A DNA stretch of 55,217 nt from Bacteroidales bacterium. Lineage in GTDB: Bacteria > Bacteroidota > Bacteroidia > Bacteroidales > P3. The stretch covers positions 1-55,217 of the forward strand of contig JAFROL010000019.1 in assembly GCA_017429685.1 (NCBI GenBank), given 5' to 3'. Both the position numbers and the translations under genes were made by a program. The notes under the pieces were generated by a model. The model saw only the letters and a list, made by a program, of their open reading frames with translations, made no database searches and had not been told where the DNA came from. This document shows positions 7,001-49,698 of this stretch, in pieces (position 1 is the stretch's first letter; each line of letters begins with the position of its first letter).

Positions 7001-7825
7001 TTAATTGTTGATGTTGCTTCCGATGATGGTATCGTAAAGTTTGTTGATTTGTTCGTAGAACACGGTGCGGTCAGCGTTGTATTCCACTATGTTGCGTTTG
7101 TTTTCGCGAGCGAAGGCCACCAACTCAGGATTGGCGTTGGGCGAAGCGATGACGATGCCGTGAGCGTAGGTGATTGCCGCCTTGGTAAGCGTCATATAGT
7201 CCAGATTCTCAAACAGTCGCAAATCCTTGGCGGTGGCTCCGTCTGCCTTGAGCTTGCGCTCCATATCGGGGCCGAAATTGCCCTCAAAGGCATCGTTTGT
7301 AATCGAAAAGACCGTTTTTGTGCCCGAAAAGAACGCGTTCTCCTTGTTGATGCGGCGCAGGTAGAAAGGAATCATACACGAGAACCATCCTGTAAAGTGA
7401 ATCAGATGCGGCTGCCAGGCAAGCTTGCGAACAGCCTCGAGGGTGCCGCGACCGTAGAAAAGTATACGCTCGTCGTTGTCGGCATAGAACTTGCCGTTCT
7501 CGTCAAAGAAACCTTTATGGTGAGTAAAATATTCCTCATTGTCAATAAAATAGACCTGCATACGTGCCGACGGTATCGAGCCCACCTTGATGATAAGCTG
7601 ATGATCGGCATTGTTCACTATCAGGTTCATACCCGACAGGCGGATAACCTCGTGCAGTTGGTTTTTGCGTTCGTTGACATTGCTGAAACGAGGCATAAAA
7701 ACCCTTATCTCACGTCCCTTTTCCTGGGCGAAAGAAGGCAAATAGCGACCGATATACGAGTTTTCGGACTCTGGCACGAAAGGCATAATCTCCTGATTGA
7801 CAAAAAGTATTCTCCCTTTTCCCAT
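7001..7825 (-). CDS. Short glycogen/starch synthase-like protein (GT5 N-terminal domain only)
   Basis: 274 residues matching the N-terminal Rossmann half of GT5 glycogen synthases: ILFVNQEIMPFVPESENSY, IRVFMPRF, PHLIHFTGW and TVFSITNDAFEG correspond to the GlgA core. The C-terminal GT-B half that binds the nucleotide sugar is absent; full GlgA has about 480 residues. The KxGGL motif that opens bacterial GlgA is replaced by ENSYIG. Proteins of this length are common in Bacteroidetes and are annotated glycogen/starch synthase, but with these losses catalysis is doubtful and a binding or regulatory role is as likely. It is transcribed leftward, probably together with the DUF4270 and MORN-repeat genes, and is divergent from recX. 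Confidence 0.8.
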   Translation of the reverse strand: MGKGRILFVNQEIMPFVPESENSYIGRYLPSFAQEKGREIRVFMPRFSNVNERKNQLHEVIRLSGMNLIVNNADHQLIIKVGSIPSARMQVYFIDNEEYFTHHKGFFDENGKFYADNDERILFYGRGTLEAVRKLAWQPHLIHFTGWFSCMIPFYLRRINKENAFFSGTKTVFSITNDAFEGNFGPDMERKLKADGATAKDLRLFENLDYMTLTKAAITYAHGIVIASPNANPELVAFARENKRNIVEYNADRTVFYEQINKLYDTIIGSNINN

Positions 7826-9804: not shown

Positions 9805-10632
9805 CTACTCGAACTGGAAATGGCATCGCGAGGCGTAGCCCAGGCCCAGCAGCTGCACTGCCGACCCCTTGTTGATAGCTATCTGCAGCTGGCCCGTGGC
9901 CGAGACCGTCAGCAGGACGTTGCCCATCCGCACGTCGCCATAGTGGCGGCTCAAACCCACGATGTCCTCATAGTGCTCGCTGCGGCCCGAACGCCATTCG
10001 ATTTTCACCCTGAAGCGGCGTCCCGCCCGAAGGGTTTCGAAGTCTTCGTAAGAAATGTTAAGATTGACGTTGCCGTAATTGTCTATGCCTGAAACCATTG
10101 CCACAAGTGTGTCGCCTTCCGTCTGGGCTTGGGGCTGCATACGGCGACGCAGCGGCTCGCATATTGTGCCAAGCTGCTGAAGCGGCTCGCCGGCCAAAAG
10201 ACGACGCGCCACATCGCAATACAGGTCGTAGGCCAGAAAGGTGTAGGTTCTAATGTCTTCGGGCAGAGATAGTTCGATGGTTACGTCGCAGCCGGCGTCG
10301 AGCGACTGTTCGAGCAGTCGGCGGTCGCTGCAAATGATATACTGGCCGCGGCTGCGCACCAGCATCGGGACGCATCCTGCTGCCGACGGCCCCCCCTCGG
10401 CGGCAATCCGTTCGCAACCCACATCGACGATGTGCACCGTGCCCTCGGGAAACGACGGTATGCCGTAGCGGACAATGCCGATGGTGGTGGCTGGGTCGTT
10501 CCACTGCTGGCTATGGCTGAGGTCGACAATTCTAACATCAGGGACCGACGAGCAGAGCCGCCCTTTGACCATCGCGACGAAAAAATCGCGACAACCCCAA
10601 TCCGTCGTAAGAGTAACTATAGGTGCATTCAT
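9805..10632 (-). CDS. SAM hydroxide adenosyltransferase (SAM chlorinase/fluorinase fold, DUF62)
   Basis: A 275-residue protein of the fluorinase/chlorinase superfamily. Most bacterial members are hydrolases that split S-adenosylmethionine to adenosine and methionine rather than halogenases. Visible features are the N-terminal TLTTDWGCRDFFVAMVKG (SAM-binding Asp), IVDLSH, a middle segment with ICSDRRLL, and the C-terminal-domain motif IDNYGNVNLNI. The length is normal. The gene stands alone on the minus strand between a terminator and a long regulatory and repeat-rich gap. Halogenase activity is unlikely but not excluded by eye, because the halide-site residues were not resolved. Confidence 0.9.
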   Translation of the reverse strand: MNAPIVTLTTDWGCRDFFVAMVKGRLCSSVPDVRIVDLSHSQQWNDPATTIGIVRYGIPSFPEGTVHIVDVGCERIAAEGGPSAAGCVPMLVRSRGQYIICSDRRLLEQSLDAGCDVTIELSLPEDIRTYTFLAYDLYCDVARRLLAGEPLQQLGTICEPLRRRMQPQAQTEGDTLVAMVSGIDNYGNVNLNISYEDFETLRAGRRFRVKIEWRSGRSEHYEDIVGLSRHYGDVRMGNVLLTVSATGQLQIAINKGSAVQLLGLGYASRCHFQFE

Positions 10633-10701
10633 ATCAAGATGTATTTTATGTGCTTATAAATCAGTGGGCAAACCGCGTTGTGGCCGTTCGTGTCCATTTT
10701 G

Positions 10702-10709
10702 CAAATTTA
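10702..10709 (-). promoter_or_regulatory. -7 element for the SAM hydroxide adenosyltransferase gene
   Basis: Minus-strand TAAATTTG matches TAnnTTTG and lies 70 bases before the start. No clear -33 element was seen. Confidence 0.45.
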
Positions 10710-10744
10710 CACAAAAATTTTTAATTTGGAATATTGTTATGCAA

Positions 10745-11079
10745 AGAAGCCGTGGTCCGGACGAATTGCAAGGTGCGCCGCCGGTCTGTCGGGTGGGCGA
10801 GGGGTCGGCCTGCCGGACGCCCGGAATCGCGCCCTCGGCCGGATGCGGCAAACGGCGCGCTTTCCCAGCGCTACCCGCTCCGCCGGTTCCCATACCGATG
10901 GAAGGCAGTTCTTATATCGTTCTTATATTCGCGATATAAGAACGATATAAGAACTGAATAAAAACAGTGAGCCAAAATGCGACCCTGGTGCGGGCCGTTT
11001 TTTGCGCAGCGAGGGCGCTGCCGGAACGGTTTTCGGCGGCGGGCGAAAACTTTTTTGCGCGTATATATAAAATAATTCG
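10745..11079. other. GC-rich non-coding stretch around the palindromic element
   Basis: The 518-base gap 10633-11150 has no convincing gene. Besides the promoters at its two ends and the palindrome at 10906-10956, it holds a GC-rich non-coding segment on each side (about 10745-10905 and 10980-11050), unlike the AT-rich promoters. Part of the left segment (TTTCCCAGC, then ACCCGCTCCGCC) recurs in inverted orientation beside the related palindrome near 49500, which suggests that these flanks belong to the same repeat element. Confidence 0.5.
10906..10956. repeat. 11-base-modular palindrome, copy 1
   Basis: A perfect 23-bp inverted repeat (10906-10928 with 10934-10956) around the centre TCGCG. 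Each arm is two units of the 11-mer NGTTCTTATAT. The same 51 bases occur unchanged at 29425-29475, and a longer relative lies at 49401-49492. Confidence 0.95.
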
Positions 11080-11110
11080 TATTTTTGTTTGTTTGCACCA
11101 TAGTGGTGCA
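11080..11110 (+). promoter_or_regulatory. suf promoter -7 element with a dyad at the expected transcription start
   Basis: TATTTTTG (11080-11087) matches TAnnTTTG; TTTG lies 22 bases upstream (11054-11057). A 17-base dyad, TGCACCATAGTGGTGCA (11094-11110, arms of 7), falls at about the start of transcription and 41 bases before the sufC ATG. It could be a repressor operator or a 5' mRNA stem. Confidence 0.6.
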
Positions 11111-11150
11111 GATGCATTAATTATTCGATAATCAATAAACTACACGAAAT

Positions 11151-11909
11151 ATGTCATTACTGTCGATACGCAATTTGCACGCCTCGATAGGCGACCGCGA
11201 GATTCTGAAAGGCGTAAACCTCGAAATCAACAAGGGCGAAGTCCACTCGATTATGGGCCCTAACGGCAACGGCAAAAGCACCTTGGCAGGCATCATTGCC
11301 GGCAACCCGAAATACACCGTTACCGAAGGCGAGGTGATATACAACGGCAAGAACATCCTTGACCTGCCTGTCGACGTGCGTGCCAACGAGGGCATCTTTC
11401 TCGGCTTCCAGTACCCTGTCGAGATTCCTGGCGTGACCATCACCAACTTTATGCGCACAGCCATCAACGAGCAGCGCAAATACCGCGGCCTTGACCCGAT
11501 GGGCGGTGCCGAATTCCTGCGCCTGATGGAGGAGAAGAAGAAGGTGGTCGAAATGACCACCAACCTGGCCAACCGTTCGGTCAACGAGGGCTTTAGCGGC
11601 GGCGAGAAGAAGAAGAACGAGATTTTCCAGATGGCTATGCTCAACCCGACGCTGGCCATCCTCGACGAGACCGACTCGGGTCTGGACATTGACGCTCTGC
11701 GCATCGTCGCCAACGGCGTCAACCAGCTGCGCAGCCCCGAAAACGCCACGGTGGTCATCACCCACTACCAGCGTCTGCTCGACTATATAGTCCCCGATTT
11801 TGTCCACGTGCTCTACGAGGGCCGCATCGTCAAGACGGGCCCAAAGGAACTGGCTCTTGAACTGGAGGAAAAAGGCTACGAATGGATTAAGGAGGAACTG
11901 GAGAAATGA
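11151..11909 (+). CDS. sufC: Fe-S cluster assembly ATPase SufC
   Basis: A 252-residue ABC-type ATPase that works with SufB and SufD as the SUF scaffold for Fe-S cluster assembly in the cytoplasm. Motifs are Walker A (GPNGNGKST, about 36-44), the Q-loop (FQYPVEIPGV), the SufC signature FSGGEKKKNE (about 146) and Walker B with the following Glu (LAILDETDSGLD, about 168), typical of SufC rather than of transporter ATPases. Unlike the usual Bacteroidetes order sufB-sufC-sufD-sufS, no sufB precedes it; the gene is first behind its own promoter. The stop overlaps the sufD start by four bases (ATGA), indicating translational coupling. Confidence 0.96.
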   Translation: MSLLSIRNLHASIGDREILKGVNLEINKGEVHSIMGPNGNGKSTLAGIIAGNPKYTVTEGEVIYNGKNILDLPVDVRANEGIFLGFQYPVEIPGVTITNFMRTAINEQRKYRGLDPMGGAEFLRLMEEKKKVVEMTTNLANRSVNEGFSGGEKKKNEIFQMAMLNPTLAILDETDSGLDIDALRIVANGVNQLRSPENATVVITHYQRLLDYIVPDFVHVLYEGRIVKTGPKELALELEEKGYEWIKEELEK

Positions 11910-14745: not shown

Positions 14746-16614
14746 ATGCGCCAACTGCAGACCATACGACAACGCCTCAGACACTCGAGCATTTTCCGCG
14801 TGTTCCGCTACCTGCGTTTCTATCCCAAGGAGATTGCGCTGAACATTGTCTTCAATCTGCTGTCCGTGGTTTTCAATCTTATGTCGTTTGTGCTTATCGT
14901 TCCGGTCATAGAGCTTTTTTTCGGCCTCAGCCAGCCGCCGGCTGTCGAGCCCGTCTTTGCCTTCAACCGGAGCGCCCTGACGGAATGGGCGCTCTACCAC
15001 CTGTACTTTTTCAAGCAGTCGGCCGGCATCTGGACCAGCCTGTTTACTTTTGCCGGTGCCTACCTGCTCTGCGTGCTGCTATATGACCTTACACGCTATC
15101 TGGGGCTCTTTTTCCTCAGCCCCATCCGCAACGGCATTACACGTCGGTTGCGCGACGACATATACCACAAAATCACAATTTTGCCAATCTCCTATTTTGC
15201 CGGGCACCGCAAGGGCGATATCATCAGCCGGCTTTCGGCCGACCTTGCCGACATCGAGTGGAGCGTTGTCAGCACCCTCCAGTCGCTGGTCAAAGACCCT
15301 GTCAATGTCATCGTATTCGCTGCCACACTAATATTCATTAGTCCGCGTCTGTTCCTTCTGTTCCTTCTTATCCTGCCTCCGGCGGTGCTGCTCATAGCGT
15401 ATATTGGTAAAAGCCTGAAACGTAATTCGGTAAAAGGCCAGCAGACTATGGGCGAAACAATGTCGGCCTACAAAGAGACCCTCGACAATCTTGAAGTCAT
15501 CAAGGCCTATGGCCGTGAACAGCACAGGCAGCACATCTTCGAACGTTCCAACGCCGACTACAGCCGGCGGATGATGCGTGTGGCACGCCGTCGCGAAGCC
15601 GGAAGTCCGCTGTCGGAGGTGATGGGCACCGTCGGTTTAGGTCTTATCCTGGTGCTTGGTGGCAACGCTGTGCTGCGCGGCGACCTGCAGGCCTCGGTTT
15701 TCATCCTATTCGTCATTATCTTTGCTCGCCTCATACCTCCCGTCCAGGCCATCGTCAAAGCCTACAGCAGCCTCCAGAAAGGCAGTGCCTCGGCAGCCCG
15801 CATCTTCGAGATTCTCGATGCCGACGAACGCATCGTTGAAAAGCCCGATGCTGTGATGATGACAGGCTTCGGCGACAAGATTGAATACCAGAATGTCAGC
15901 TTTGCCTACGACAGCGACGACGGCCGTCAGGTTTTCGTGCTTGACCACGTCGACCTAACCATTCCCAAGGGTCGCAAGGTTGCCATCGTTGGGCCTTCGG
16001 GAGCCGGCAAGACGACCCTTGTCGACCTGCTACCGCGCTTCTACGACCCGACCGACGGACGCATTCTGATTGATGGCGTGCCTATCAAGGATATGAACAT
16101 CAACTCGTTGCGCTGCAATATTGGTGTCGTGTCGCAGAACTGCATTTTGTTCAACGACACGGTGGCCAACAACATAGCCTTTGGCCTTGAAGGCGTCGGT
16201 ATGGAGCGCATCCGCGAAGCGGCACGCATAGCATATGCCGACGACTTTATTATGCAGCTGCCACAAGGCTATGACACCCCCGTTGGCGACCACGGGAGTG
16301 CCCTCAGCGGCGGACAGCGACAGCGTATCAGCATCGCCCGTGCCATATTGCGCAATCCGCCGATACTGATTCTCGACGAGGCAACGTCGGCTCTCGACGC
16401 CGAATCGCAACAGGCTGTCCAGTCGGCCATTGACAGCCTGATGCAGGACCGCACGTCGATTGTCATAGCCCACCGCTTGTCAACAATCGAAAACGCCGAT
16501 ACCATCATTGTGATGGATCGTGGTCGTATCGTTGAGTCGGGTTCGCACAGCGAGCTGATGCAGCGCGGAGGCACTTATAAGTCGTTGGTGGAGATGCAAA
16601 ATTATCGAGTTTGA
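14746..16614 (+). CDS. MsbA-like ABC exporter (fused membrane and ATPase domains)
   Basis: 622 residues, one half-transporter that would act as a homodimer. The N-terminal 340 residues hold six membrane segments (e.g. IALNIVFNLLSVVFNLMSFV and LFLLFLLILPPAVLLIAYIG). The ATPase has Walker A (GPSGAGKTT, about 416), a Q-loop (GVVSQNCILFNDT), the signature ALSGGQRQR (about 517), Walker B (ILILDEATSALD, about 540) and the H-loop (VIAHRLSTI). The family includes MsbA lipid A flippases as well as peptide and drug exporters. MsbA is the usual Bacteroidetes annotation, but the substrate cannot be deduced. It is the last gene of the sufC-sufD-PorE-like run. Confidence 0.9.
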   Translation: MRQLQTIRQRLRHSSIFRVFRYLRFYPKEIALNIVFNLLSVVFNLMSFVLIVPVIELFFGLSQPPAVEPVFAFNRSALTEWALYHLYFFKQSAGIWTSLFTFAGAYLLCVLLYDLTRYLGLFFLSPIRNGITRRLRDDIYHKITILPISYFAGHRKGDIISRLSADLADIEWSVVSTLQSLVKDPVNVIVFAATLIFISPRLFLLFLLILPPAVLLIAYIGKSLKRNSVKGQQTMGETMSAYKETLDNLEVIKAYGREQHRQHIFERSNADYSRRMMRVARRREAGSPLSEVMGTVGLGLILVLGGNAVLRGDLQASVFILFVIIFARLIPPVQAIVKAYSSLQKGSASAARIFEILDADERIVEKPDAVMMTGFGDKIEYQNVSFAYDSDDGRQVFVLDHVDLTIPKGRKVAIVGPSGAGKTTLVDLLPRFYDPTDGRILIDGVPIKDMNINSLRCNIGVVSQNCILFNDTVANNIAFGLEGVGMERIREAARIAYADDFIMQLPQGYDTPVGDHGSALSGGQRQRISIARAILRNPPILILDEATSALDAESQQAVQSAIDSLMQDRTSIVIAHRLSTIENADTIIVMDRGRIVESGSHSELMQRGGTYKSLVEMQNYRV

Positions 16615-16710
16615 AAAACAATTCACATACAAGTGATGTCTGAAAATTATCGATACTTGTAGTTTAATAGGCTGACTTTTAATACGTAATATTTTATTTT
16701 TAATTTTTAT

Positions 16711-16741
16711 TTTGCTGTTTGGCAAAAAGTTTGTACTTTTG
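16711..16741 (+). promoter_or_regulatory. tRNA-Val promoter
   Basis: TTTG (16711-16714), exactly 19 bases, then TACTTTTG (16734-16741): a perfect match to the Bacteroidetes TTTG-N19-TAnnTTTG promoter, 21 bases before the tRNA. Confidence 0.9.
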
Positions 16742-16762
16742 CAAACTCTTTCACGGGAGATT

Positions 16763-16837
16763 GGGAGTTTAGCTCAGCTGGTTCAGAGCACTTGCCTTAC
16801 AAGCAAGGGGTCATTGGTTCGAATCCAATAACTCCCA
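16763..16837 (+). tRNA. tRNA-Val (anticodon TAC)
   Basis: A 75-base cloverleaf. The acceptor GGGAGTT pairs with AACTCCC; the D-arm region is GCTCAGCTGG; the anticodon stem CTTGC/GCAAG has loop CTTACAA giving TAC; the T-loop is TTCGAAT. The CCA end is not encoded. Confidence 0.97.
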
Positions 16838-16840
16838 CAA

Positions 16841-16872
16841 AACGGAGACTCGACAGTAGCTCCGTTTTTTTT
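16841..16872 (+). terminator. Terminator after tRNA-Val
   Basis: The stem AACGGAG (16841-16847) with CTCCGTT (16860-16866) is followed by an unbroken T run to 16872. It ends only 20 bases before the next gene, which may therefore depend on readthrough. Confidence 0.8.
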
Positions 16873-16891
16873 GTAAAAACCATTAGCTCCA

Positions 16892-17383
16892 ATGTCCAGC
16901 CGCAAGTATCGTATAGTGTTGTTCCTCTGTCTCGCGGTCTCTCTCTCCGCCTGCCACAACGATGTCGTCCCCGACGATGTTGTCGACACTGCCACATTGG
17001 CGCAATTCCTATCCGAGGCACACCTCATAGACAGCTATTACAACGTAGCCGACAACCGTGATTCGGCAAAGACTCTTGTTGATGCCGCCTATGACTCGCT
17101 ATACGCCAAATATGGCATCAGTAAAGAGCAATACGACAGTACTATAGTCTATTATTTGCGTCGGCCGCAGATGCTGGAGGAAGTCTTTTCGCGAGTACTC
17201 GACAACCTGAATGCCTATACTGAACGGAAATTGAATGATTGTCGCATAGCCGACAGCATCGCCGAGGCCCGGAATCCCGACTCGACGGCACGAGAGGCTT
17301 CGAATAAAAGAAGGAGAGCAAAAGACGAGCCTGCCGAAATTAAGGTGTTCAGAAGCATCAAGGACATTAAGGGTGTAAAATAG
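16892..17383 (+). CDS. DUF4296 family lipoprotein
   Basis: 163 residues with a lipoprotein signal (VSLSAC, Cys near residue 21) and then a helical domain: FLSEAHLIDSYYNV, YDSLYAKYGISKEQYDST, YYLRRPQMLEEVFSRVLDNL. This pattern, including the KYGI.KEQYDST segment, is that of DUF4296, small Bacteroidetes lipoproteins of unknown function. The C-terminus is basic and Ser/Arg/Lys-rich. There is no recognisable promoter in the 20 bases between the tRNA terminator and the start, so expression may depend on readthrough from the tRNA-Val promoter. Confidence 0.8.
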   Translation: MSSRKYRIVLFLCLAVSLSACHNDVVPDDVVDTATLAQFLSEAHLIDSYYNVADNRDSAKTLVDAAYDSLYAKYGISKEQYDSTIVYYLRRPQMLEEVFSRVLDNLNAYTERKLNDCRIADSIAEARNPDSTAREASNKRRRAKDEPAEIKVFRSIKDIKGVK

Positions 17384-28824: not shown

Positions 28825-29319
28825 ATGTCCACCGTACTTATAATTCTGGCAATAATCCTGTTCCTTGTCGGCATAGCCGGTTCCATAGTTCCCGGACTTG
28901 CCGGCCCGCCGTTCAGCTGGGCGGCGCTACTGCTGATCCATTTCAGCGACGCGGCGCAGTTCACTCCCGCGTTCCTCGTAGCCACAGCGGCAGTGGCCGT
29001 TGTCATCACGCTTCTCGACTACATTGTGCCCTCGTGGAGCACCAAGCGCCACGGAGGCAGCAAAGCGGGAGTTTGGGGCTGCAACATAGGGCTTGTCGTT
29101 TCCATCGTCGGGCTTCCTTTCGGCCCGCAGGGCCTGTTGGGAGTCATCCTTTGGCCTTTTGCGGGTGCGCTGGTCGGCGAGCTTGTCAGCGGCAAGCAAA
29201 GCCGTGCGGCACTGCGTGCCGCCTGGGGTGCCTTCCTTGGTTTCCTCACCGGCACAGGACTCAAGCTGGCTTTTGCCTTCTTTGCTGCCTTCTATGTTGT
29301 CCGCGAGCTGTTTGTCTGA
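28825..29319 (+). CDS. DUF456 family membrane protein
   Basis: 164 residues, nearly all hydrophobic, with Gly-rich membrane helices (IILAIILFLVGIAGSIVPGL, WAALLLIHF, ATAAVAVVITLLDYIVP, then GVILWPFAGALVGEL). The opening VGIAGSIVPGLAGPPFSWAALL and the later GPQGLLGVILWPFAGALVGEL pattern are those of DUF456, a widespread inner-membrane family of unknown role. It follows the sulfatase-fold gene after 93 bases that contain no clear hairpin. The downstream end lies about 100 bases before palindrome copy 2. Confidence 0.88.
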   Translation: MSTVLIILAIILFLVGIAGSIVPGLAGPPFSWAALLLIHFSDAAQFTPAFLVATAAVAVVITLLDYIVPSWSTKRHGGSKAGVWGCNIGLVVSIVGLPFGPQGLLGVILWPFAGALVGELVSGKQSRAALRAAWGAFLGFLTGTGLKLAFAFFAAFYVVRELFV

Positions 29320-29420
29320 CGGGCGGCACCTCTTTTTCCTGCTTTTTTGCACACCATTCTGCCGTTCTCCTCTTGTCGGCGTCTCTGTGCCGTCGCCTAC
29401 GCCTTTTCCCATATGTTTTT

Positions 29421-29479
29421 AATGCAGTTCTTATATCGTTCTTATATTCGCGATATAAGAACGATATAAGAACTGCATT
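29421..29479. repeat. 11-base-modular palindrome, copy 2
   Basis: A perfect 27-bp inverted repeat (29421-29447 with 29453-29479) around TCGCG. The inner 51 bases (29425-29475) are identical to copy 1. It lies between the ends of two convergent genes; no T run follows, so it is not a standard terminator. Confidence 0.95.
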
Positions 29480-29540
29480 GGAAAAATATGAAAAAAAGCG
29501 GTCCGGATAGCATTCGAAAGGCTATGGGCCGCTGTTGTGT

Positions 29541-29716
29541 CGTTGTGTCGGATTTGCCGTTGTGTCGGATTTGTCGTTGTGTCGGATTTGCAATCCGACA
29601 CTGCTTAATATAAGGATTTGTAATCCGCAAAAATCATTGCACTATCGTTGTGTCGGATTTGCAATCCGACACTGCTTAATATAAGGATTTGTAATCCGCA
29701 AAAATCATTGCACTAT
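29541..29716. repeat. REP array downstream of the RAYT gene (two 17-bp partial and two 71-bp full units)
   Basis: Two 17-base partial units (29541-29557, 29558-29574) are followed by two identical 71-base units (29575-29645, 29646-29716). Each full unit holds two small palindromes, GTCGGATTTGCAATCCGAC and GGATTTGTAATCC. The last 12 bases of the array (29705-29716) are also the last codons of the transposase gene. With the palindrome at 29421, this array fills the 385-base gap 29320-29704. Confidence 0.95.
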
Positions 29717-30274
29717 AATAACGTCCAGTAGTCCTTTCCCTCCAGCATAGTCTATTGCTGAACTGTATTTGAAATGCTCTGGTGTTGAAACTATTTCTCT
29801 CGTGACCGGGTTCTGGTGGATATAGTTTATTTTCTGTTGAAGGAAATTGTACGAAACAATGTCCTCAGGATAGTAGCCTTCTTGCCAGAAACGGTAATTC
29901 TTGATTTTTCTGTCATTGTTGCCGGCAAACCAAAACCTGTTCATCATCCATTCCTTTCGGCTTTCTTCGGGGTTGTTTTGTATGCAGTCGATTATTTTCT
30001 TGTTAGTGAATTTTTTGAAGTCGCGTATGACATTTGACAGTTCCAGTCGCTCTTCTTCATACGGGAGTTCTTTATCGAGAGCTACTAATAGATGAATGTG
30101 GTTGCTCATCAGCACCCACGCATAAATGTTGAGGCTTTTGTTTTCCTGACAATATTTGAGCGAATCGACAACTATATGGTTGTAGATTGGGCGTGTGAAT
30201 ATGTCTATCCAGTCGACAACGGTTAACGTTACGAAGTATAGTGTCTTTGTTAAGGTGCAGTATGGAGTCGTCAT
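29705..30274 (-). CDS. REP-associated tyrosine transposase (RAYT, Y1/HUH superfamily)
   Basis: 189 residues of the IS200-like Y1 transposase fold. Diagnostic segments are YFVTLTVVDWIDIF at the start, WVLMSNHIHLLVAL with the HUH pair HIH, a mid-region FKKFTNKKIIDCI and the C-terminal signature INYIHQNPV, then EHFKYSSAIDYAGG. RAYTs are single-copy genes that recognise and process REP palindromes rather than moving as simple insertion sequences. Here REPs lie on both sides in inverted orientation (29541-29716 and 30296-30348), the expected arrangement. The frame is intact. The final codons lie inside the last REP unit. Confidence 0.93.
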   Translation of the reverse strand: MTTPYCTLTKTLYFVTLTVVDWIDIFTRPIYNHIVVDSLKYCQENKSLNIYAWVLMSNHIHLLVALDKELPYEEERLELSNVIRDFKKFTNKKIIDCIQNNPEESRKEWMMNRFWFAGNNDRKIKNYRFWQEGYYPEDIVSYNFLQQKINYIHQNPVTREIVSTPEHFKYSSAIDYAGGKGLLDVIIVQ

Positions 30275-30295
30275 TGTTTTGTGTTTGCGGTGTTT

Positions 30296-30348
30296 GCGGA
30301 TTACAAATCCTTATATTAAGCAGCGTCGGATTGCAAATCCGACGCAAC
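30296..30348. repeat. REP unit upstream of the RAYT gene (inverted copy)
   Basis: The inverted counterpart of the downstream unit: 30296-30323 is the exact reverse complement of the half with GGATTTGTAATCC, and 30324-30348 carries GTCGGATTGCAAATCCGAC with two compensating changes outside it (C/G for T/A). It lies 21 bases upstream of the RAYT start and 3 bases from the end of the next lipoprotein gene. Confidence 0.93.
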
Positions 30349-30351
30349 GGG

Positions 30352-33306: not shown

Positions 33307-33360
33307 CTAGTTGAACTAGTATTACTAGTCGTGCTAGTATTACTAGTTCAACTAGTGTTG
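33307..33360. repeat. Six tandem 9-base CTAGTNNNN units forming an inverted repeat
   Basis: Units begin at 33307, 33316, 33325, 33334, 33343 and 33352. They also form arms 33307-33328 and 33334-33355 with 21 of 22 positions pairing around TCGTG. The array fills the spacer between the DppC-like and DUF59 genes. Confidence 0.95.
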
Positions 33361-39079: not shown

Positions 39080-42000
39080 ATGAGAATCAAACGATTGATA
39101 GTCCTGATTTTTGCGTTGTGTGTCGTGCCGATGGCTATGGCACAGAAGAACCGCATAACCGAATTCACTCCAAGCGGCTTGCCGCAGGAGATGCTTGAAT
39201 ACCTGAACCAAGCCACCAGCGACAAAGACCGCAAGACCGAGAACGCGCGCCTAATGCGCGACTTCGGGGTACGCTATGGAGCTTTGGACGGCTCGACGCA
39301 GGGCCGTGTCACGGCAATCTGCAATACGGTGTTGAAACTCAAGGTGCGTCAGCATCCGGATGTGACTAATTTTATCAGCCTCTTCAACACGCTGGCGGCT
39401 ACTGGCAATTCGTCGAACTTCGACCAGTGGCTTGGATGCATCGAGTATATACAGTCGCGCAACAAGAAAATCAAGGATTTCACAGATTTTGTTGAGTTCA
39501 GCGCCGGCTTGGCAACGTCGCGCACGCTCTATGCATCGCGGTCCTGCACGTGGCAGCTGCAGAAAGATTGTGCGTATCGTCTGGCTTTTGAAGACAATGA
39601 GATTAAGGTGTTTGTCGACAAGCCGGTAGAGCTCTACTACAGCTCGGACAAGGACAACGGCACGATATACGGCACGAAGGGTGTTTTCCACTACTTTGAC
39701 AACAAATGGGTGGGCGACGGAGGCCGCCTGAACTGGGACCGTACGGGTATCGCTCCCACAGTTTGCTGGGCAAGTCTGTCGAAATATGAGGCGGTGGTGA
39801 AGTTTCCCAAGTTTGTCGCCGACTCGGTGCAGTTCACCAACACCAACTATTTCAGCAAGCCCATCTACGGCAGGGTAGAGGAGGCGCTCAGCGCCAAGCT
39901 GGAACCCGAGAAGTACTCGTTCCCCAAATTCCGCTCGTATCAGAAGGACTTCAAAATGAAGGATATCCTGCCCGGTGTCGATTACAGCGGCAGCTTTATG
40001 ATGAACGGCTCGAAATTCATCACCAGCGATACCAAGAACCCCGCCACACTGATTTTCTATCGCAGCGGCAAGCCTTTCATCACCGTCAATTCGGTCAAGT
40101 TCACCATCACCGCCAGCCGCGTGGTGTCGGAAAATGCCGCCGTCAAAATCTATATCGATGGCGACTCGATTTGCAACAACGGCATCACGGTGCGCTATCT
40201 GGCGCAAGAGAAGCAGGTGAGCCTCATCAACGACTCGAAGCGCAACTATTACAGCCCTTATTCCAACTCGTACCACAACCTGGATATGTATTGCGAATCA
40301 ATCGTTTGGAAGATGAACGAGGACAAGCTGGATTTTGCTATGCTTGGCGCGTCGGGCGACCAGAGCTATTCGACCTTTGAGTCGAACAGCTACTACTCGG
40401 AACGCAAGTTCCGCGAAATCCAGGGCATCGACCAGGTGAGCCCCGTCATACGCGTGTATCGTTATATGCAGATGCGCGATATGACCTACGATTTCTATAT
40501 GGACGAGTTCGCCCAGGCCATCAAGATGGACATTATGCAGGCCAAGTCGATGATTCACACGCTGGCTAAGTCGGGCCTGGTGTCGTACAACGAGGCGCAG
40601 GGCAAAATCTATGTCAACGACAAGCTGGTGGACTATGCCAAGGCCAGCGCCAAGAGCAAAGACTATGATTATGACGCACTTATCCTTGAATCGTCGGCCA
40701 AGAACAACAACGCCGAGCTGAATCTTTCGAGCAACGCTTTGAGCGTGCACGGCGTCGAGAAGTTCGTCCTCAGCGACAGCCAGCAGGTGGTCATCTATCC
40801 CAACCAGGGCGAGCTGGAGGTGCGCAAGAATCGCGACATCAACTTCAACGGCCGCATCAACGCCGGCCGCTTCATTTTCTACGCCACCAACGCAACGTTC
40901 CTCTACGACGACTTCAAGCTCGACCTGCCGCAGGTCGACTCGATGATATTCTACGTCACCCAGTTCAACAATCCGCAGGAGGAGCACATCGTCTACACGC
41001 CGCTGCACAACCTGACGGGCCACCTGCAGATTGACCAGGCCGACAACCACAGTGGACTGAAGAAGGTCGCGGAACAATATCCTATCTTTACTAGCTTGAA
41101 AGACAGTTATGTATACTACGACCGCAAGGACATCCACAACGGCGCCTACGTGCGCGACAAATTCTACTATACCATACATCCGTTTGTGGTCAAGAATATG
41201 GTCGATTTTGTCACCGACAGCCTCAGTTTCAACGGCGTGCTGACCTCGGCGGGCATCTTCCCCGACATCGTCGAACCCCTCAAGGTGCAGCCCGACTATT
41301 CGCTTGGCTTTGTCCGCAAGACGCCGCGCGGTGGATATGACGCCTATGGCGGCAAGGGCCATTTCACCAACAAGCTCGACCTCAGCTATCGCGGCTTCCG
41401 CGCCGAAGGTCAGGTGGATTATCTGACTTCCGTAATGAAGTCGAAGACCATCTATTTTATGCCCGACTCGATGGTTGCCGTCAGCGACACCTTCTATGTC
41501 AAGGAACAGGGCGTATTCCCCGACATCCGCATCAACCGCGCTATGCAGCGCTGGTACCCCTATGCCGACTCGATGCGCGTGGCGCAGCTGCTCAACGGTC
41601 CGCAGTTCAAGATGTACCACAACGATGCCCTGCTGGCTGGCCATACCGTCCTCAAGCCCGAAGGAGCATACGCCTCCGGAGCCGTCACCATCAAGGAAGG
41701 TACGCTCGAGTCGCTGCGTTTCTCGCTGCAGCCCAAGGATATGTACAGCAACGTGACGGCCTTCACGCTGCGCTCTGAGGTGTATAACAACATCGCTTTC
41801 TACGCCACCGATATGAAGTCGCACACCGACTACACCAAGCGTCGGGCCGACTTTGTGGCCAATGCCGACCTGGGCCGCACCCAGCTGCCGCTGCTGCAGT
41901 ATGCCGCCTATGTCGACAAGTTCTCGTGGGAAATCGACAAGAAGGAGCTGGATCTCATCAACAGCAAGAGCGAAAGCAGCCAGGGCCTGGAAGGCCTGAC

Positions 42001-43639
42001 GCTGCGCGAGCGCTTCCGCCACACCGAGCAGCCCGGCGCCCTCTTCGTTTCGACCGACTCCACCAAGGACAGCCTCAACTTCCACGCCGTGCGTTCGACA
42101 TATCTGTATAATGCTGGCCAGCTGACCTGCCGCCAGGTCTTCACCGTCAACAGCGCCGATGCCGTCATCGCCCCCGGCGGCGACACGCTCCACGTGCGCC
42201 AGGGCGGCGCTATCGACCTGATGAAGCGTTCGCAGATTCTGGCCAGCCGCGACAATAAATACCATCTGATCTACGATGCCGACGTAATCCTCGATGGTGC
42301 CAAGAAATACAGCGCCAAGGGCTATATCGACTATGTCGACGTCGACAACAAGAAGCAGAAAATCTACCTGTCGTCCATCGCGCCCGACAATCGTGGCGTT
42401 TCGGTGGGCAACGGCTTTGTGCCCGACAGCGCCAACTTCACGCTCAACAGCGCCTTCGGCTTTGCTGGCAATGTCCGCGTCGAGGCCGACAAGGAGCACT
42501 ACTATTTCGACGGCGGCGTCCGCCTGCTGCACAAGTGCACCACGTCGGCGCAGCTCGGCCTGCTGGCCTACTCCAGCTACCTCGACCCCAAACAGATACT
42601 GGTCTCGGTGCCCGAAATACCCACCGACTGGAAGGGCAACCGCATCACGGCGTCGATTCTTTTCAACAAGGCCAATATGATGCCCTATCCCGCCTTCCTC
42701 ACCGCCGAGCGCGCCGCCGACAACGAGCTGATGGGCGCATACGGATATGTGACGTATAATAATGATACAAAGGAATATATGATTGCTTCGGCCGAAAAGA
42801 TTCAGGATCCCGACAATGTCGTCAGCCCCTACCTGACGCTCAACACGCAGACCTGCGAGATGAAGGGCGAGGGCCCCATCAATTTCAACGTCAAGCAGAA
42901 CCTGGTGAGCCTCTTCTCGTATGGCACCGCCACCCTTGGCGGCAGCAAGGAGGGCGACATCGAGATGAGCAGCATCCTCGGCTTCACATTCCCCATCGAC
43001 GAGAAGGTGCTTGGAGCTATGGCTCAGACCATTGCCGACGACCTGCGCCTGTCGCCGTCGCAGCCTGCCAACGAAGCTACGCGCCGCGCAATGATGTACT
43101 ATATGGGCGCCGAAGCCGGTGCCGAAGCTTACGCCAACTACGTCAGCACGGGCTTCTACGACAAGATGCCCAAGGAGTTCGACAACACGCTGCTCATCGA
43201 AGGCATAGAGTGGACATACGACCCGGCCCTCGGCTACCGCTACGACGGCGTAGCCTCGCTGGCAATGGTCGGCAAGAAGCAACTGCATCTCTCGACTCGC
43301 GTCAAAGCCCAGATGTACCACAAAGGCAACGGCAACTACCTGGTGCTCTACATTCAGGTGGCCTCCGACCACTGGTACTATTTCAACTACGAGTTCAACA
43401 GCCAGCAGATGCTCATCCAGAGCTCGGTGGGCGAATGGGTCGATATGATCAAGGCCCTGCCCGCCGACAAGCGCCACGTCAGCGGCAAGAGCGACCAGGG
43501 CGACTATCGTTACCGTATCTCGCCGAGCCGCAGCGAAGTGCCCAACTTCCTGCTGCGTATGGGCGGCAACGCCGAGGCTGAGGACGACCCCGGCGACTGG
43601 GACGTCGACGAGGAAGACGTAATCGAGGGCGACGATTGA
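39080..43639 (+). CDS. Very large secreted protein of unknown function (1519 residues)
   Basis: A signal peptide (1-22, ending PMAMAQ) is followed by about 1470 residues predicted as mainly beta, with short aromatic strands and recurrent themes such as GKGHFTNKLDLSYRGFRAEG, SMIFYVTQFN and AKGYIDYVDVDNKKQKIYLS. I recognise no named domain; the spacing of strands vaguely resembles LPS-transport or AsmA-like beta structures, but this is only an impression. A helical stretch near 480-540 (DEFAQAIKMDIMQAKSMIHT) interrupts. The C-terminus ends in a strongly acidic tail (last 25 residues) and carries no T9SS sorting domain, so the protein is most likely periplasmic. Length and conservation-like composition suggest a core Bacteroidetes family of unknown role. 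It stands alone, with a strong terminator. Confidence 0.75.
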   Translation: MRIKRLIVLIFALCVVPMAMAQKNRITEFTPSGLPQEMLEYLNQATSDKDRKTENARLMRDFGVRYGALDGSTQGRVTAICNTVLKLKVRQHPDVTNFISLFNTLAATGNSSNFDQWLGCIEYIQSRNKKIKDFTDFVEFSAGLATSRTLYASRSCTWQLQKDCAYRLAFEDNEIKVFVDKPVELYYSSDKDNGTIYGTKGVFHYFDNKWVGDGGRLNWDRTGIAPTVCWASLSKYEAVVKFPKFVADSVQFTNTNYFSKPIYGRVEEALSAKLEPEKYSFPKFRSYQKDFKMKDILPGVDYSGSFMMNGSKFITSDTKNPATLIFYRSGKPFITVNSVKFTITASRVVSENAAVKIYIDGDSICNNGITVRYLAQEKQVSLINDSKRNYYSPYSNSYHNLDMYCESIVWKMNEDKLDFAMLGASGDQSYSTFESNSYYSERKFREIQGIDQVSPVIRVYRYMQMRDMTYDFYMDEFAQAIKMDIMQAKSMIHTLAKSGLVSYNEAQGKIYVNDKLVDYAKASAKSKDYDYDALILESSAKNNNAELNLSSNALSVHGVEKFVLSDSQQVVIYPNQGELEVRKNRDINFNGRINAGRFIFYATNATFLYDDFKLDLPQVDSMIFYVTQFNNPQEEHIVYTPLHNLTGHLQIDQADNHSGLKKVAEQYPIFTSLKDSYVYYDRKDIHNGAYVRDKFYYTIHPFVVKNMVDFVTDSLSFNGVLTSAGIFPDIVEPLKVQPDYSLGFVRKTPRGGYDAYGGKGHFTNKLDLSYRGFRAEGQVDYLTSVMKSKTIYFMPDSMVAVSDTFYVKEQGVFPDIRINRAMQRWYPYADSMRVAQLLNGPQFKMYHNDALLAGHTVLKPEGAYASGAVTIKEGTLESLRFSLQPKDMYSNVTAFTLRSEVYNNIAFYATDMKSHTDYTKRRADFVANADLGRTQLPLLQYAAYVDKFSWEIDKKELDLINSKSESSQGLEGLTLRERFRHTEQPGALFVSTDSTKDSLNFHAVRSTYLYNAGQLTCRQVFTVNSADAVIAPGGDTLHVRQGGAIDLMKRSQILASRDNKYHLIYDADVILDGAKKYSAKGYIDYVDVDNKKQKIYLSSIAPDNRGVSVGNGFVPDSANFTLNSAFGFAGNVRVEADKEHYYFDGGVRLLHKCTTSAQLGLLAYSSYLDPKQILVSVPEIPTDWKGNRITASILFNKANMMPYPAFLTAERAADNELMGAYGYVTYNNDTKEYMIASAEKIQDPDNVVSPYLTLNTQTCEMKGEGPINFNVKQNLVSLFSYGTATLGGSKEGDIEMSSILGFTFPIDEKVLGAMAQTIADDLRLSPSQPANEATRRAMMYYMGAEAGAEAYANYVSTGFYDKMPKEFDNTLLIEGIEWTYDPALGYRYDGVASLAMVGKKQLHLSTRVKAQMYHKGNGNYLVLYIQVASDHWYYFNYEFNSQQMLIQSSVGEWVDMIKALPADKRHVSGKSDQGDYRYRISPSRSEVPNFLLRMGGNAEAEDDPGDWDVDEEDVIEGDD

Positions 43640-43680
43640 TTTTGACCCCAAATTTGGTCGTTTTTCATTCCGAAAACACA

Positions 43681-43720
43681 TTTTGCAAGGCATCCCAGCG
43701 GATGCCTTGCAAAATTTTTT
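43681..43720 (+). terminator. Strong terminator after the 1519-residue protein gene
   Basis: A perfect 15-bp stem (43681-43695 and 43700-43714), loop CAGC, then a T run. Confidence 0.93.
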
Positions 43721-48031: not shown

Positions 48032-49276
48032 TCACAATTCACTTTTCACAATCTTGTACAGCTTGTCGCCGCGATGCACCGTTGCGGTTGTGGCGAAGCT
48101 GAAACGGTCGCCCTGATGCACCTCGGCCACGGGGTCGCGCTCCAGGCGCAGTTCCTCGACGGTGGCGCGGTAGACGCCGGTGGTTTCGCCCATAACCATC
48201 ACCTCGTCGCCGGGACGCAGCGTCTCGGCGGTCTGCAGCAGTGCCTCGGCGACGCTGATGCGTGTGAAATAGTTCTTAATCAGGCCCAAATAAACCTTCT
48301 TTTCGGTGGCTTGGCTGCCGTAGCCCTCGGTCCATTCGCCCAGCCGGCGGCCAAGGTAGTAGCCGTCCCAAAATCCTCGGTTAAAGACAGTTGCCAGCCG
48401 CTCTTTCCACTTCGCAATGCGGTCGGGCGTGTAGGTGCCGTCGGCGATGGCCTGGACGGCCTCGCGGTAGCATTCCGTCACGGTGCGCACATAGTCGGCG
48501 CTGCGTCCGCGGCCTTCGATTTTCAAAACGCGCACGCCCGCATCGACGATTTTGTCCAGAAAGTCAATGGTACACAAGTCTTTGGGCGACATAATATATT
48601 TGTTGTCGACCACCAGCTCGGTGTCGCTTTCGAGGTCCTTGACCAGGTATTGGCGGCGGCACAGCTGCAGGCAGGCGCCGCGGTTGGCGCTGTAGCCCGC
48701 GTTGTCGAGGCTCAGGTAGCATTTGCCGCTCACCGACATACAGAGCGCGCCGTGGGCGAAAATCTCGATCTGCACCAGCTCGCCCTTGGGTCCGCGGATG
48801 TCGTTCTGGCGGATAAAGTCGGTGATTTCCTTCACCTGGCTCAGCGGCAGCTCGCGGGCGGTGACCATCACGTCGGCAAACTGGGCATAGAAGCGCACGG
48901 CCTCGATGTTGCTGATGTTGCACTGGGTCGAGATGTGCACCTCGACGCCGACGCTGCGGGCGTAGGTGATGACGGCCAGGTCGCTGGCGATGATGGCGCT
49001 GACGCCGACGCGTTTGGCGGCATCGACAAGGCGGTGCATCTCGTCGATTTCGTTGTTGTAGATTATTGTGTTGACCGTCAGGTAGGTGCGAATGTTGGCG
49101 CGGTGCGCTATGTCGCAGATGCGCTCCAGGTCGTCGAGCGTGAAGTTGGCCGCCGAACGCGACCGCATATTCAGCTCTCCGATGCCGAAATAGACGGCGT
49201 CGGCTCCGCCTTGTATCGCCGCTGTCAAGCTTTCGTACGAGCCCACGGGGGCCATTATTTCTATTTTGTTCTGCAT
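48032..49276 (-). CDS. U32 family peptidase-like protein (TrhP/RlhA type)
   Basis: 414 residues from the ATG at 49276 (MQNKIEIMAPVGSYESLTAA); the frame is open for a further 42 codons upstream but those run into the palindromic repeat. The TIM-barrel core opens with GGADAVYFGIGELNMRS; the U32 signature is EIFAHGALCMSVSGKCYLS, and further Cys (ANRGACLQLCRR) probably bind an Fe-S cluster. Studied members of the family carry out tRNA or rRNA hydroxylation (TrhP, RlhA) or ubiquinone hydroxylation (UbiU/V) rather than proteolysis. Of these, a tRNA U34 hydroxylation role is the most likely. It is the first gene of the operon with ThrE and AroE. Confidence 0.9.
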   Translation of the reverse strand: MQNKIEIMAPVGSYESLTAAIQGGADAVYFGIGELNMRSRSAANFTLDDLERICDIAHRANIRTYLTVNTIIYNNEIDEMHRLVDAAKRVGVSAIIASDLAVITYARSVGVEVHISTQCNISNIEAVRFYAQFADVMVTARELPLSQVKEITDFIRQNDIRGPKGELVQIEIFAHGALCMSVSGKCYLSLDNAGYSANRGACLQLCRRQYLVKDLESDTELVVDNKYIMSPKDLCTIDFLDKIVDAGVRVLKIEGRGRSADYVRTVTECYREAVQAIADGTYTPDRIAKWKERLATVFNRGFWDGYYLGRRLGEWTEGYGSQATEKKVYLGLIKNYFTRISVAEALLQTAETLRPGDEVMVMGETTGVYRATVEELRLERDPVAEVHQGDRFSFATTATVHRGDKLYKIVKSEL

Positions 49277-49400
49277 AATCTTATCGTCAAAATCCAGACC
49301 GCGTTTTTGCCGCCTGACAAATGGATAACGGCACGCGCTCGTTTTTATTGCCCCAAAACCGACAGGGACCGGAAAGATTTCTCCAGCCACCCGCACTGGC

Positions 49401-49492
49401 ATTTCCTATATCGTTCTTATATCGTTCTTATATCGTTCTTATATTTTTATATAGGAACGATATAAGAACGATATAAGAACGATATAAGAACG
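49401..49492. repeat. 11-base-modular palindrome, copy 3 (expanded)
   Basis: Arms 49401-49444 and 49449-49492 around TTTT. Each arm has four 11-base CGTTCTTATAT units; the outermost left and innermost right units are degenerate. Copies 1 and 2 have two units per arm. Flanks on both sides contain a GCCACCCGC-like sequence in inverted orientation. Confidence 0.93.
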
Positions 49493-49698
49493 GGCGGAGC
49501 GGGTGGCTTGAAGGGCTGGGAATGAGCCCGTTAGGGGATTTGGAGGTAAAAATGTTAAAATGTTGATTGTGAGTGAAGTAAGGATTTTAGGGTGGTTTTT
49601 AGGGATTTTTAACAATTTTTTTTGCAGGCTGGAAGCCTGCGCTCCAGGGGGGGGTGCAGGCTGGAAGCCTGCGGTCCAGGTCCAGGGTTTAAATTTTT
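49493..49698. repeat. Non-coding gap with two REP-like palindromes
   Basis: The gap from 49277 to about 49755 has no gene. Besides copy 3 and a promoter, it holds two direct copies of the palindrome GCAGGCTGGAAGCCTGC (49624-49640 and 49656-49672, period 32) separated by a G8 tract. This is a different REP type from that around the RAYT gene. Confidence 0.85.

Follow-up and report, generated by a model that had tools for sequence, protein, structure and literature searches.

Dispersed palindromes and related systems

REPINs of Pseudomonas fluorescens have conserved ends and compensatory changes and lie near a RAYT gene, and their spacing is reported to show no deviation from random above 200 bp (PMC3116915). 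The palindromes described here, from the genome of a gut Bacteroidales bacterium (G000), resemble the REP and REPIN sequences of Pseudomonas with their RAYTs in being dispersed, intergenic and palindromic, in numbering tens to hundreds of copies, and in forming several families per genome. However, in the two families distinguished below, A and B, the ends are degenerate and the inner arms invariant or nearly so, spacing is regular over kilobases rather than random above 200 bp, compensatory changes are absent from the outer arms of A but strong in the inner arms of B, and no Y1_Tnp gene flanked by the palindromes was found in the genome. On the features tested, the element is not a REPIN as the available text of PMC3116915 describes one.

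The CGTC REP superfamily has been reported in Bacteroidetes, with stems of 8-9 bp, loops of 4-5 nt and, as far as the available part of the report goes, no dedicated transposase (PMC3733652). GTAG and CGTC REPs are likewise stem-loop repeats, whereas here the arms consist of 11-bp units and reach 44 bp or longer in family B and in a long-arm form of A. No invariant GTAG or CGTC tag was seen at the foot when 62 short-core A copies and 12 B copies were inspected by eye. The BrickBuilt MITEs of Porphyromonas gingivalis have 23-nt direct units and 19 copies (PMC4596501, available text) and, with other MITEs of that species, share the intergenic position, internal tandem units and terminal inverted repeats; here, in contrast, the units are of 11 nt and lie in inverted arms, with 70 A copies in addition to family B. 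Terminal inverted repeats, as a MITE feature, are represented by the GCCACCCGCTCCGCC ends of the copies in a relative, RGIG6188, and are degenerate in A and B. No parent element of a DDE transposon was seen in the loci fetched, whose flanks are too diverged to define empty sites. PINSR of Prevotella intermedia, 188 bp long and present in 177-184 copies with about three quarters of its places conserved between two strains (PMC4755523), is also lineage-specific and intergenic; it is without terminal inverted repeats, and 11-bp units go unmentioned in the available text.

The unit length itself has a precedent in parC of plasmid R1, where ParR needs two 11-bp repeats (PMC9426499). There, according to the available text, the units are read by a multimerising ribbon-helix-helix protein and the repeats differ among plasmids. 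An array of 11-bp units is present in the case at hand also, but in parC, the centromere of a plasmid, the repeats are direct and adjoin its own genes, whereas here there are many inverted arrays on a chromosome. No match to ParM or ParR was obtained among 20 proteins scanned with Pfam.

Dispersed palindromic protein sites with a chromosome-wide distribution include those of parS, Noc, SlmA and MatP. These are short sites that are not known to have 11-bp arrays or to have their sequence replaced from species to species. Searches for the palindromes elsewhere gave no exact 21-mers in viral contigs and nothing beyond chance-level pieces in plasmids; five 15-mer pieces had no occurrence in the literature texts searched, and other literature searches led to related families only.

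The palindromes of the window

The window is the whole of one contig (C34; 55,217 nt) of a genome of 2.65 Mb in 52 contigs, and it holds three copies of family A, given here without strand. Copy 1 (10868..10994) has arms at 10907-10928 and 10934-10955 around the centre TCGCG at 10929-10933, with degenerate outer arms on both sides, and stands between a SAM_HAT gene (9805-10632, minus strand) and an ABC-ATPase gene (11151-11909, plus strand) that is sufC-like by our reading. Copy 2 (29387..29513; arms 29426-29447 and 29453-29474, centre again TCGCG) lies between a DUF456 gene (28825-29319, plus strand) and a RAYT-like gene (29705-30274, minus strand). The earlier note, made from the window's sequence, had described both as having two 11-mers per arm around TCGCG, and this is so at 10907-10955 and 29426-29474. 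It also had them identical over 51 bases; identical they are, over 52 (10905-10956 and 29424-29475). As an account of the core, the two-unit palindrome is accurate, but each arm runs on for about 38 nt in a degenerate though patterned sequence.

Copy 3 (49383..49510) is of the long-arm form, with four 11-mer units per arm at 49401-49492 and the centre TTTT. That much had been noted; two of the eight units, the outermost on the left (ATTTCCTATAT) and the innermost on the right (CGTTCCTATAT), are however imperfect. Its ends are GC-rich (AGCCACCCGC... on the left, ...GCGGGTGGCTTG on the right), and it is situated just upstream of a Peptidase_U32 gene (48032-49402, minus strand). With up to one mismatch allowed, the window has 15 occurrences of the 11-mer where 0.54 are expected, and none of 100 shuffles reaches 15.

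As the earlier note had stated, no T run directly follows any of the three. A scan around copy 1 alone (10700-11160) gave four terminator-like sites against 0.9 expected, two being small stems inside or beside the right outer arm, and in none of the four is the palindrome the terminator stem. A side observation in the same window is of two long ORFs at 39080-43693 that overlap on opposite strands, one of 1519 aa (plus) and the other of 1131 aa (minus).

Family A across the genome

The absence of further copies had been named as grounds for giving up the earlier note's reading; there are 70 of family A in the genome, taken as clusters of units from pattern searches together with stretches read around sites. 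Sixty-two are short-core (two 11-mers per arm, 5-nt centre), five are direct arrays with four direct units in one arm and the other arm degenerate (L105, L107, L108, L123, L159), and three are long-arm (window 49401, L139, and L096 with an imperfect right arm). One additional, truncated copy is at a contig end (C35:180454). By a simple codon-usage gene caller 69 of the 70 are intergenic, 37 being between tandem, 20 between convergent and 10 between divergent genes and 2 having a neighbour on one side only, and one copy overlaps a predicted ORF start.

Constraint is most evident in the arms of the short-core form. These (AGTTCTTATATCGTTCTTATAT, 22 bp each) show 2 changes in 62 x 44 = 2,728 positions, with 60 copies free of mismatches and two having one each, and the intermediate mismatch counts in the 574 kb scanned around copies are those of the direct-array and long-arm forms. 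Decayed cores are rare: 398 kb chosen away from A copies yielded only the truncated copy at C35:180454. Genome-wide searches for such cores covered one or two mismatches, among the matches listed. The 5-nt centre, in contrast, has 12 variants, all Y-NNN-R (TCGCG 19, CCGCG 7, TGCAG 7, TGCGG 7, TGCCG 6, TCGCA 5, TCCAG 4, TCCCG 3 and four singletons). Neither a conversion tract nor a single recent burst should skip 5 nt, and the invariance of the arms around so variable a centre disfavors both. A selfish or neutral repeat without function, its identity kept by gene conversion among copies, would account for homogeneity within a species and difference between species, but is very improbable, since centre and adjacent outer arms should then be homogenised as well, yet on neither side does the invariance extend beyond the 22-bp arm; the spacing dealt with below would also be left unexplained.

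The outer arms are informative to about 38 nt, reading inward GCCACC-N-GC-N-CCGCC-TTTT-N-GCA-Y-A-YCGTT-NNN-AT-K-CA. Nearly fixed positions stand beside free ones (T20 in 122 of 124, T21 in 123 of 124, A5 in 121 of 124), and at outer positions 2-23 some 745 of 2,728 letters are non-consensus, against 2 of 2,728 in the core. Left and right do not covary over positions 1-25 (995 matches, with 996.3 +- 14.0 by permutation), and in the zone from 26 to 40 nt left-right matches are below those of shuffles (358 against 384.3 +- 12.4). The idea that the core had been inserted into a pre-existing degenerate target is not supported: the outer half-site is private to this genome (35 + 31 matches), with at most two matches in any of 98 other genomes in a search of low sensitivity.

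A second family and the question of RNA

The same genome has a second family of 11-nt-unit palindromes, B, with the unit TGTACGSTATW, exemplified by CCCGTTGTACGCTATATGTACGCTATATGTACGGTATTTGTACGCTT-tcg-complement with ends like CCACCTTCTTCGCCC. It was sought within 1,163 kb, which include C11 and C50 complete and C40 minus its last 1.8 kb, and there are 14 copies; ten of these are in the 398 kb chosen away from family A, which held no complete A copy. The B copies (L255-L294, e.g. L258 13000 and L271 11043) are outside the window and interleaved with those of A, and the stretches read around A copies, the window among them, contained none. Thirteen of the 14 are intergenic and one overlaps predicted ORFs. 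Gene context differs from that of A, with 8 of 12 B copies having two called neighbours between divergent genes as against 10 of 67 for A (p = 4.8e-4).

Among the 12 copies with an exact centre, the 44-nt arms of B have few variable positions, and these change together on the two sides: 525 of 528 positions match between inner arms, against 507.8 +- 2.9 by permutation (0 of 3,000). Such covariation implies that the palindrome is maintained as such, which is what the copying of one arm from the other would give. Different triplets occur at the centre (TCG, CGA, CGG, CTG, CCG, CAG), and the degenerate outer ends show no dependence of left on right (125 of 192, with 129.4 +- 4.9 expected). The ends of A and B are of the same GC-rich degenerate kind (GCCACC..CGCC), and given these shared ends a common target for the two families is possible.

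Covarying arms are also what an RNA element would have, and predicted RNA hairpins are very stable (-39.7, -52.0 and -86.9 kcal/mol; z -8.1, -13.1 and -15.9). The proposal would be that long hairpins are transcribed as terminators, processing signals or mRNA stabilisers, and the edges of A copies are nearer to gene 3′ ends (median 90 nt, n = 70) than to 5′ ends (164.5 nt, n = 50), a comparison that has no background control. It is nonetheless improbable. The outer arms of A lack covariation, its centre has no strand preference in tandem gaps (16 template, 11 coding), and 10 of 67 A and 8 of 12 B copies are between divergent genes, which together with the lack of a T tract directly after the stem is not how intrinsic terminators look. 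Rfam at gathering scores, applied to the window, found three tRNAs and nothing on the palindromes, and a local role would leave spacing over tens of kilobases unexplained.

Eleven is not the sole period. Twenty-six further palindromes were found in 980 kb of the genome at a score of at least 18, many with tandem units of 7, 9 or 10 nt, and a general copying process may build repeat-unit palindromes. The remark in the earlier note that 11 bases is about one helical turn thus stands as regards a constant period of 11 in these families, but does not extend to the other palindromes of the genome.

Spacing along the chromosome

The 39 same-contig gaps of family A have a minimum of 10,431 bp, and none is below 10 kb where 14.5 +- 3.0 are expected under uniform placement. 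So large a minimum was reached in none of 3,000 uniform simulations, in which copy-less contigs were treated as 21 equal pieces, and in none of 2,000 restricted to intergenic sites. With a null conditional on the first and last A copy of each contig, 8.2 of 29 gaps are expected below 10 kb, again with none observed. Copies mostly leave the assembly unbroken, and loss of short contigs is therefore an unlikely cause.

The two families obey the spacing together. On C11, C40 and C50 there are 17 sites (7 A, 10 B) with 14 gaps of 14,761-41,961 bp, their mean being 25,048 and their CV 0.34; of 20,000 uniform placements one had so large a minimum gap and none so small a CV. No B copy of the 14 is within 14 kb of an A copy, though this zone takes up 65% of the sequence read (P = 3.4e-7). 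As two different cores come under one spacing rule, the rule cannot be set by something that reads just one of them.

Regular spacing is not confined to this genome. The relative G090 has 113 places of one family, and among the 100 listed 57 of 64 gaps were tested: none is below 3 kb (9.1 expected), 6 are below 5 kb (14.6), 9 below 7.5 kb (21.0) and 21 below 10 kb (26.5), with the qualification that the 13 unlisted places could add short gaps. For RGIG6188 the spacing is descriptive only, with seven same-contig gaps of which the smallest is 7,786 bp, and contigs there often end at copies.

Palindromes so regularly placed suggest protein sites arrayed along the whole chromosome, or else a mobile element that avoids its own copies. 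The invariance of the arms about a changing centre, the scarcity of decayed copies and the regular spacing of two cores point to recognition of the design along the whole chromosome, and we tentatively favor the reading of the copies as a regularly spaced, chromosome-wide array of recognised palindromic sites for a putative factor, while giving it somewhat less than an even chance. The earlier note had suggested an active element, or else a protein or RNA target under constraint. Constraint is upheld (invariant arms, variable centre, non-random spacing), and it may act on protein binding or come from the copying of a mobile palindrome. Placed only narrowly behind the array is a REPIN- or MITE-like palindrome that is mobile but non-autonomous, an enzyme encoded elsewhere recognising its shared ends or its hairpin and copying it into intergenic space; the two are not exclusive. 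Target exclusion, which would separate A from B insertions, yields regular spacing if sites fill up.

The genome itself offers the mobile palindrome a good deal: tens to more than 100 dispersed intergenic copies, and two families with like GC-rich ends. Shared ends, the covarying arms of B and the other repeat-built palindromes together suggest that the copies are products of a mobile palindrome, their spacing being set by exclusion, and the last two of these lower the odds of pure protein sites. Yet few A cores are decayed, the arms stay invariant around a changing centre, the loci fetched showed no parent element, and the REPINs that would be the model are, in the available text of PMC3116915, randomly spaced with conserved ends and compensatory changes, as opposed to the degenerate ends and regular spacing here. 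A further difficulty concerns the enzyme. The earlier note had proposed looking for co-occurrence with a RAYT gene, and that link is not supported: both Y1_Tnp genes found in the genome carry their own, unrelated flanking repeats. Moreover, PF01797 (Y1_Tnp) is present in 31 of 41 genomes searched but the unit pattern in just 2 of 61.

Versions in relatives and the sharing of sites

An exact 22-mer search of a species-genome collection gave 50 stretches: 48 are from the MAG RGIG6188 (G066), which comes from sheep rectum, and the other two are from yak rumen and reindeer, one each. In RGIG6188 the palindrome is of a long form, GCCACCCGCTCCGCCC, each arm having four units; it stands at 73 places, in copies near-identical over 90 nt. 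Of 99 genomes of the genus, among them G000, 10 have the two-unit pattern with up to one mismatch, and more versions of the design occur in G007, G090, G106, G082 and others; an exact 27-nt centre is common to 100 listed of the 113 places in G090. In 40 kb from each of 20 relatives there are 11 palindromes with a score of at least 20, two of which (G012, G002) have 11-nt units of unrelated sequence, the membership of the single one in G002 being doubtful as it lacks GC-rich ends. Lag 11 is strongest in all nine hand-picked segments, from seven species (G000, G066, G090, G007, G106, G012, G002), with a small lead in the short-core arm of G000 (0.42 against 0.38 and 0.37), and is strongest in two family B arms too. 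A minor observation is a sub-family with units like ATATATAGGAT beside the main form in G077 (L040 start, L212).

This patchy distribution, and near-identity of a kind that recent spread would give, in RGIG6188 and in the shared centre of G090, are favorable to the mobile palindrome, for which turnover of a master copy would lead to species-specific versions. Empty sites in relatives are favorable also, and count against the array: the copy 1 site, with the same gene pair, is empty in RGIG6188 (L064), and a galE site is empty in G077, G035, G067 and G069 (20 of 30 galE loci looked at).

Occupied sites nevertheless tend to be the same. Among gaps of G000 for which the RGIG6188 pieces have an orthologous stretch, 13 of 17 occupied by A are occupied in RGIG6188 as against 3 of 28 empty ones (p = 1.2e-5), or 3 of 26 empty ones with a wider search span (p = 4.4e-5). 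The comparison is confined to RGIG6188 pieces chosen for holding copies, and incomplete non-matches were dropped (one occupied and seven or nine empty; one and eight in later stretches). Matching for gap length weakens it, the figures being 13 of 17 against 2 of 19 at 100 bp or more (p = 1e-4), 10 of 14 against 2 of 11 at 150 bp or more (p = 0.015) and 8 of 12 against 2 of 8 at 200 bp or more (p = 0.17). In later stretches of G000 two of three gaps occupied by B but also 6 of 21 empty ones are occupied in RGIG6188 (p = 0.25); all gaps pooled give 15 of 20 against 9 of 47 (p = 4.0e-5). The sharing of sites with RGIG6188 is supported. Ten of the 13 shared A sites are short-core in G000, two direct-array and one long-arm, and the copies fetched from RGIG6188 for these sites have the long form. 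True pairs have flanks hardly more similar than those of shuffled pairs (0.527 against 0.482 identity over the first 15 nt, P = 0.03; not significant further out). Vertical descent of single sites is only suggestive, with one clear pair of long-arm copies (L139/L041) among the pairs compared, and parallel insertion at shared sites is possible. The weakening with matched gap length, the higher control of later stretches and the poor likeness of flanks all tell against the array, as do the covarying arms of B, the other unit periods and the differing gene contexts of A and B. A side observation is a long-form palindrome at 7068-7157 of the RGIG6188 stretch L064; the matching gap of the window, 16614-16892, is without one and holds a tRNA gene (16763-16837).

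What an array might do

If the chromosome-wide array is nonetheless taken as the preferred reading, it would amount to about one palindromic site per 25 kb, of two core types but one architecture, in which a short variable centre is enclosed by arms of 11-bp units and these by degenerate ends rich in GC (GCCACC..CGCC). The putative factor would recognise the arms sequence-specifically and would probably be a multimeric DNA-binding protein, with one 11-bp unit per helical turn. A period near one helical turn suggests a multimeric reader, for which ParR of plasmid R1 provides an analogy only. The role of such an array would presumably be in the organisation or segregation of the chromosome and not in the affairs of single genes, and between species the sequence of the unit would be replaced with retention of the design and, in part, of the sites. 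The factor, its chromosomal role and the manner in which sites are gained and rewritten are all inferred, and the rewriting may well be the copying of a mobile palindrome.

A bolder version, which we regard as rather doubtful, would have the array genus-wide, its 11-bp-unit architecture conserved, the unit rewritten in each species and two interchangeable versions present in one genome, the design being read by a modular putative factor or spacing machinery as a new organising or centromere-like code. Were the copies chromosome sites, a recognition sequence would have changed at about a hundred places with spacing kept, and there would be a handle on chromosome organisation in Bacteroidales. 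Were they mobile, the element would be REPIN-like, with a target exclusion that reaches beyond 10 kb and holds between two families differing in sequence. On either reading, the regular spacing common to two unrelated cores is a testable constraint on any mechanism.

Y1_Tnp genes and other repeats of the genome

The RAYT-like gene of the window lies between 57-nt inverted repeats that contain GGATTTGCAATCC (29575-30349), and copy 2, about 230 nt from the gene, is outside these. Its Y1_Tnp domain scored just below the Pfam cut-off in one scan and above it in another, and the locus includes a 71-nt stretch duplicated exactly in tandem. The second Y1_Tnp gene (L160; C50:126600-134600) is embedded in repeat families of 204 and 268 nt that are unrelated to the palindromes.

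The palindromes with other units recur as well. Those with 9-nt units (CTAGTATTA and TTAGGC types) are at window position 33329 and at L108 7223, L159 1053 and L267 18612. Some have 10-nt units (AGTTAAGGGA) with a terminal motif like GGGACAAT, others 7-nt units (GTGACCA / GTGAATA), and the stretches with these are L095, L109, L128, L262 and L271, and L103, L104, L130 and L139, respectively.
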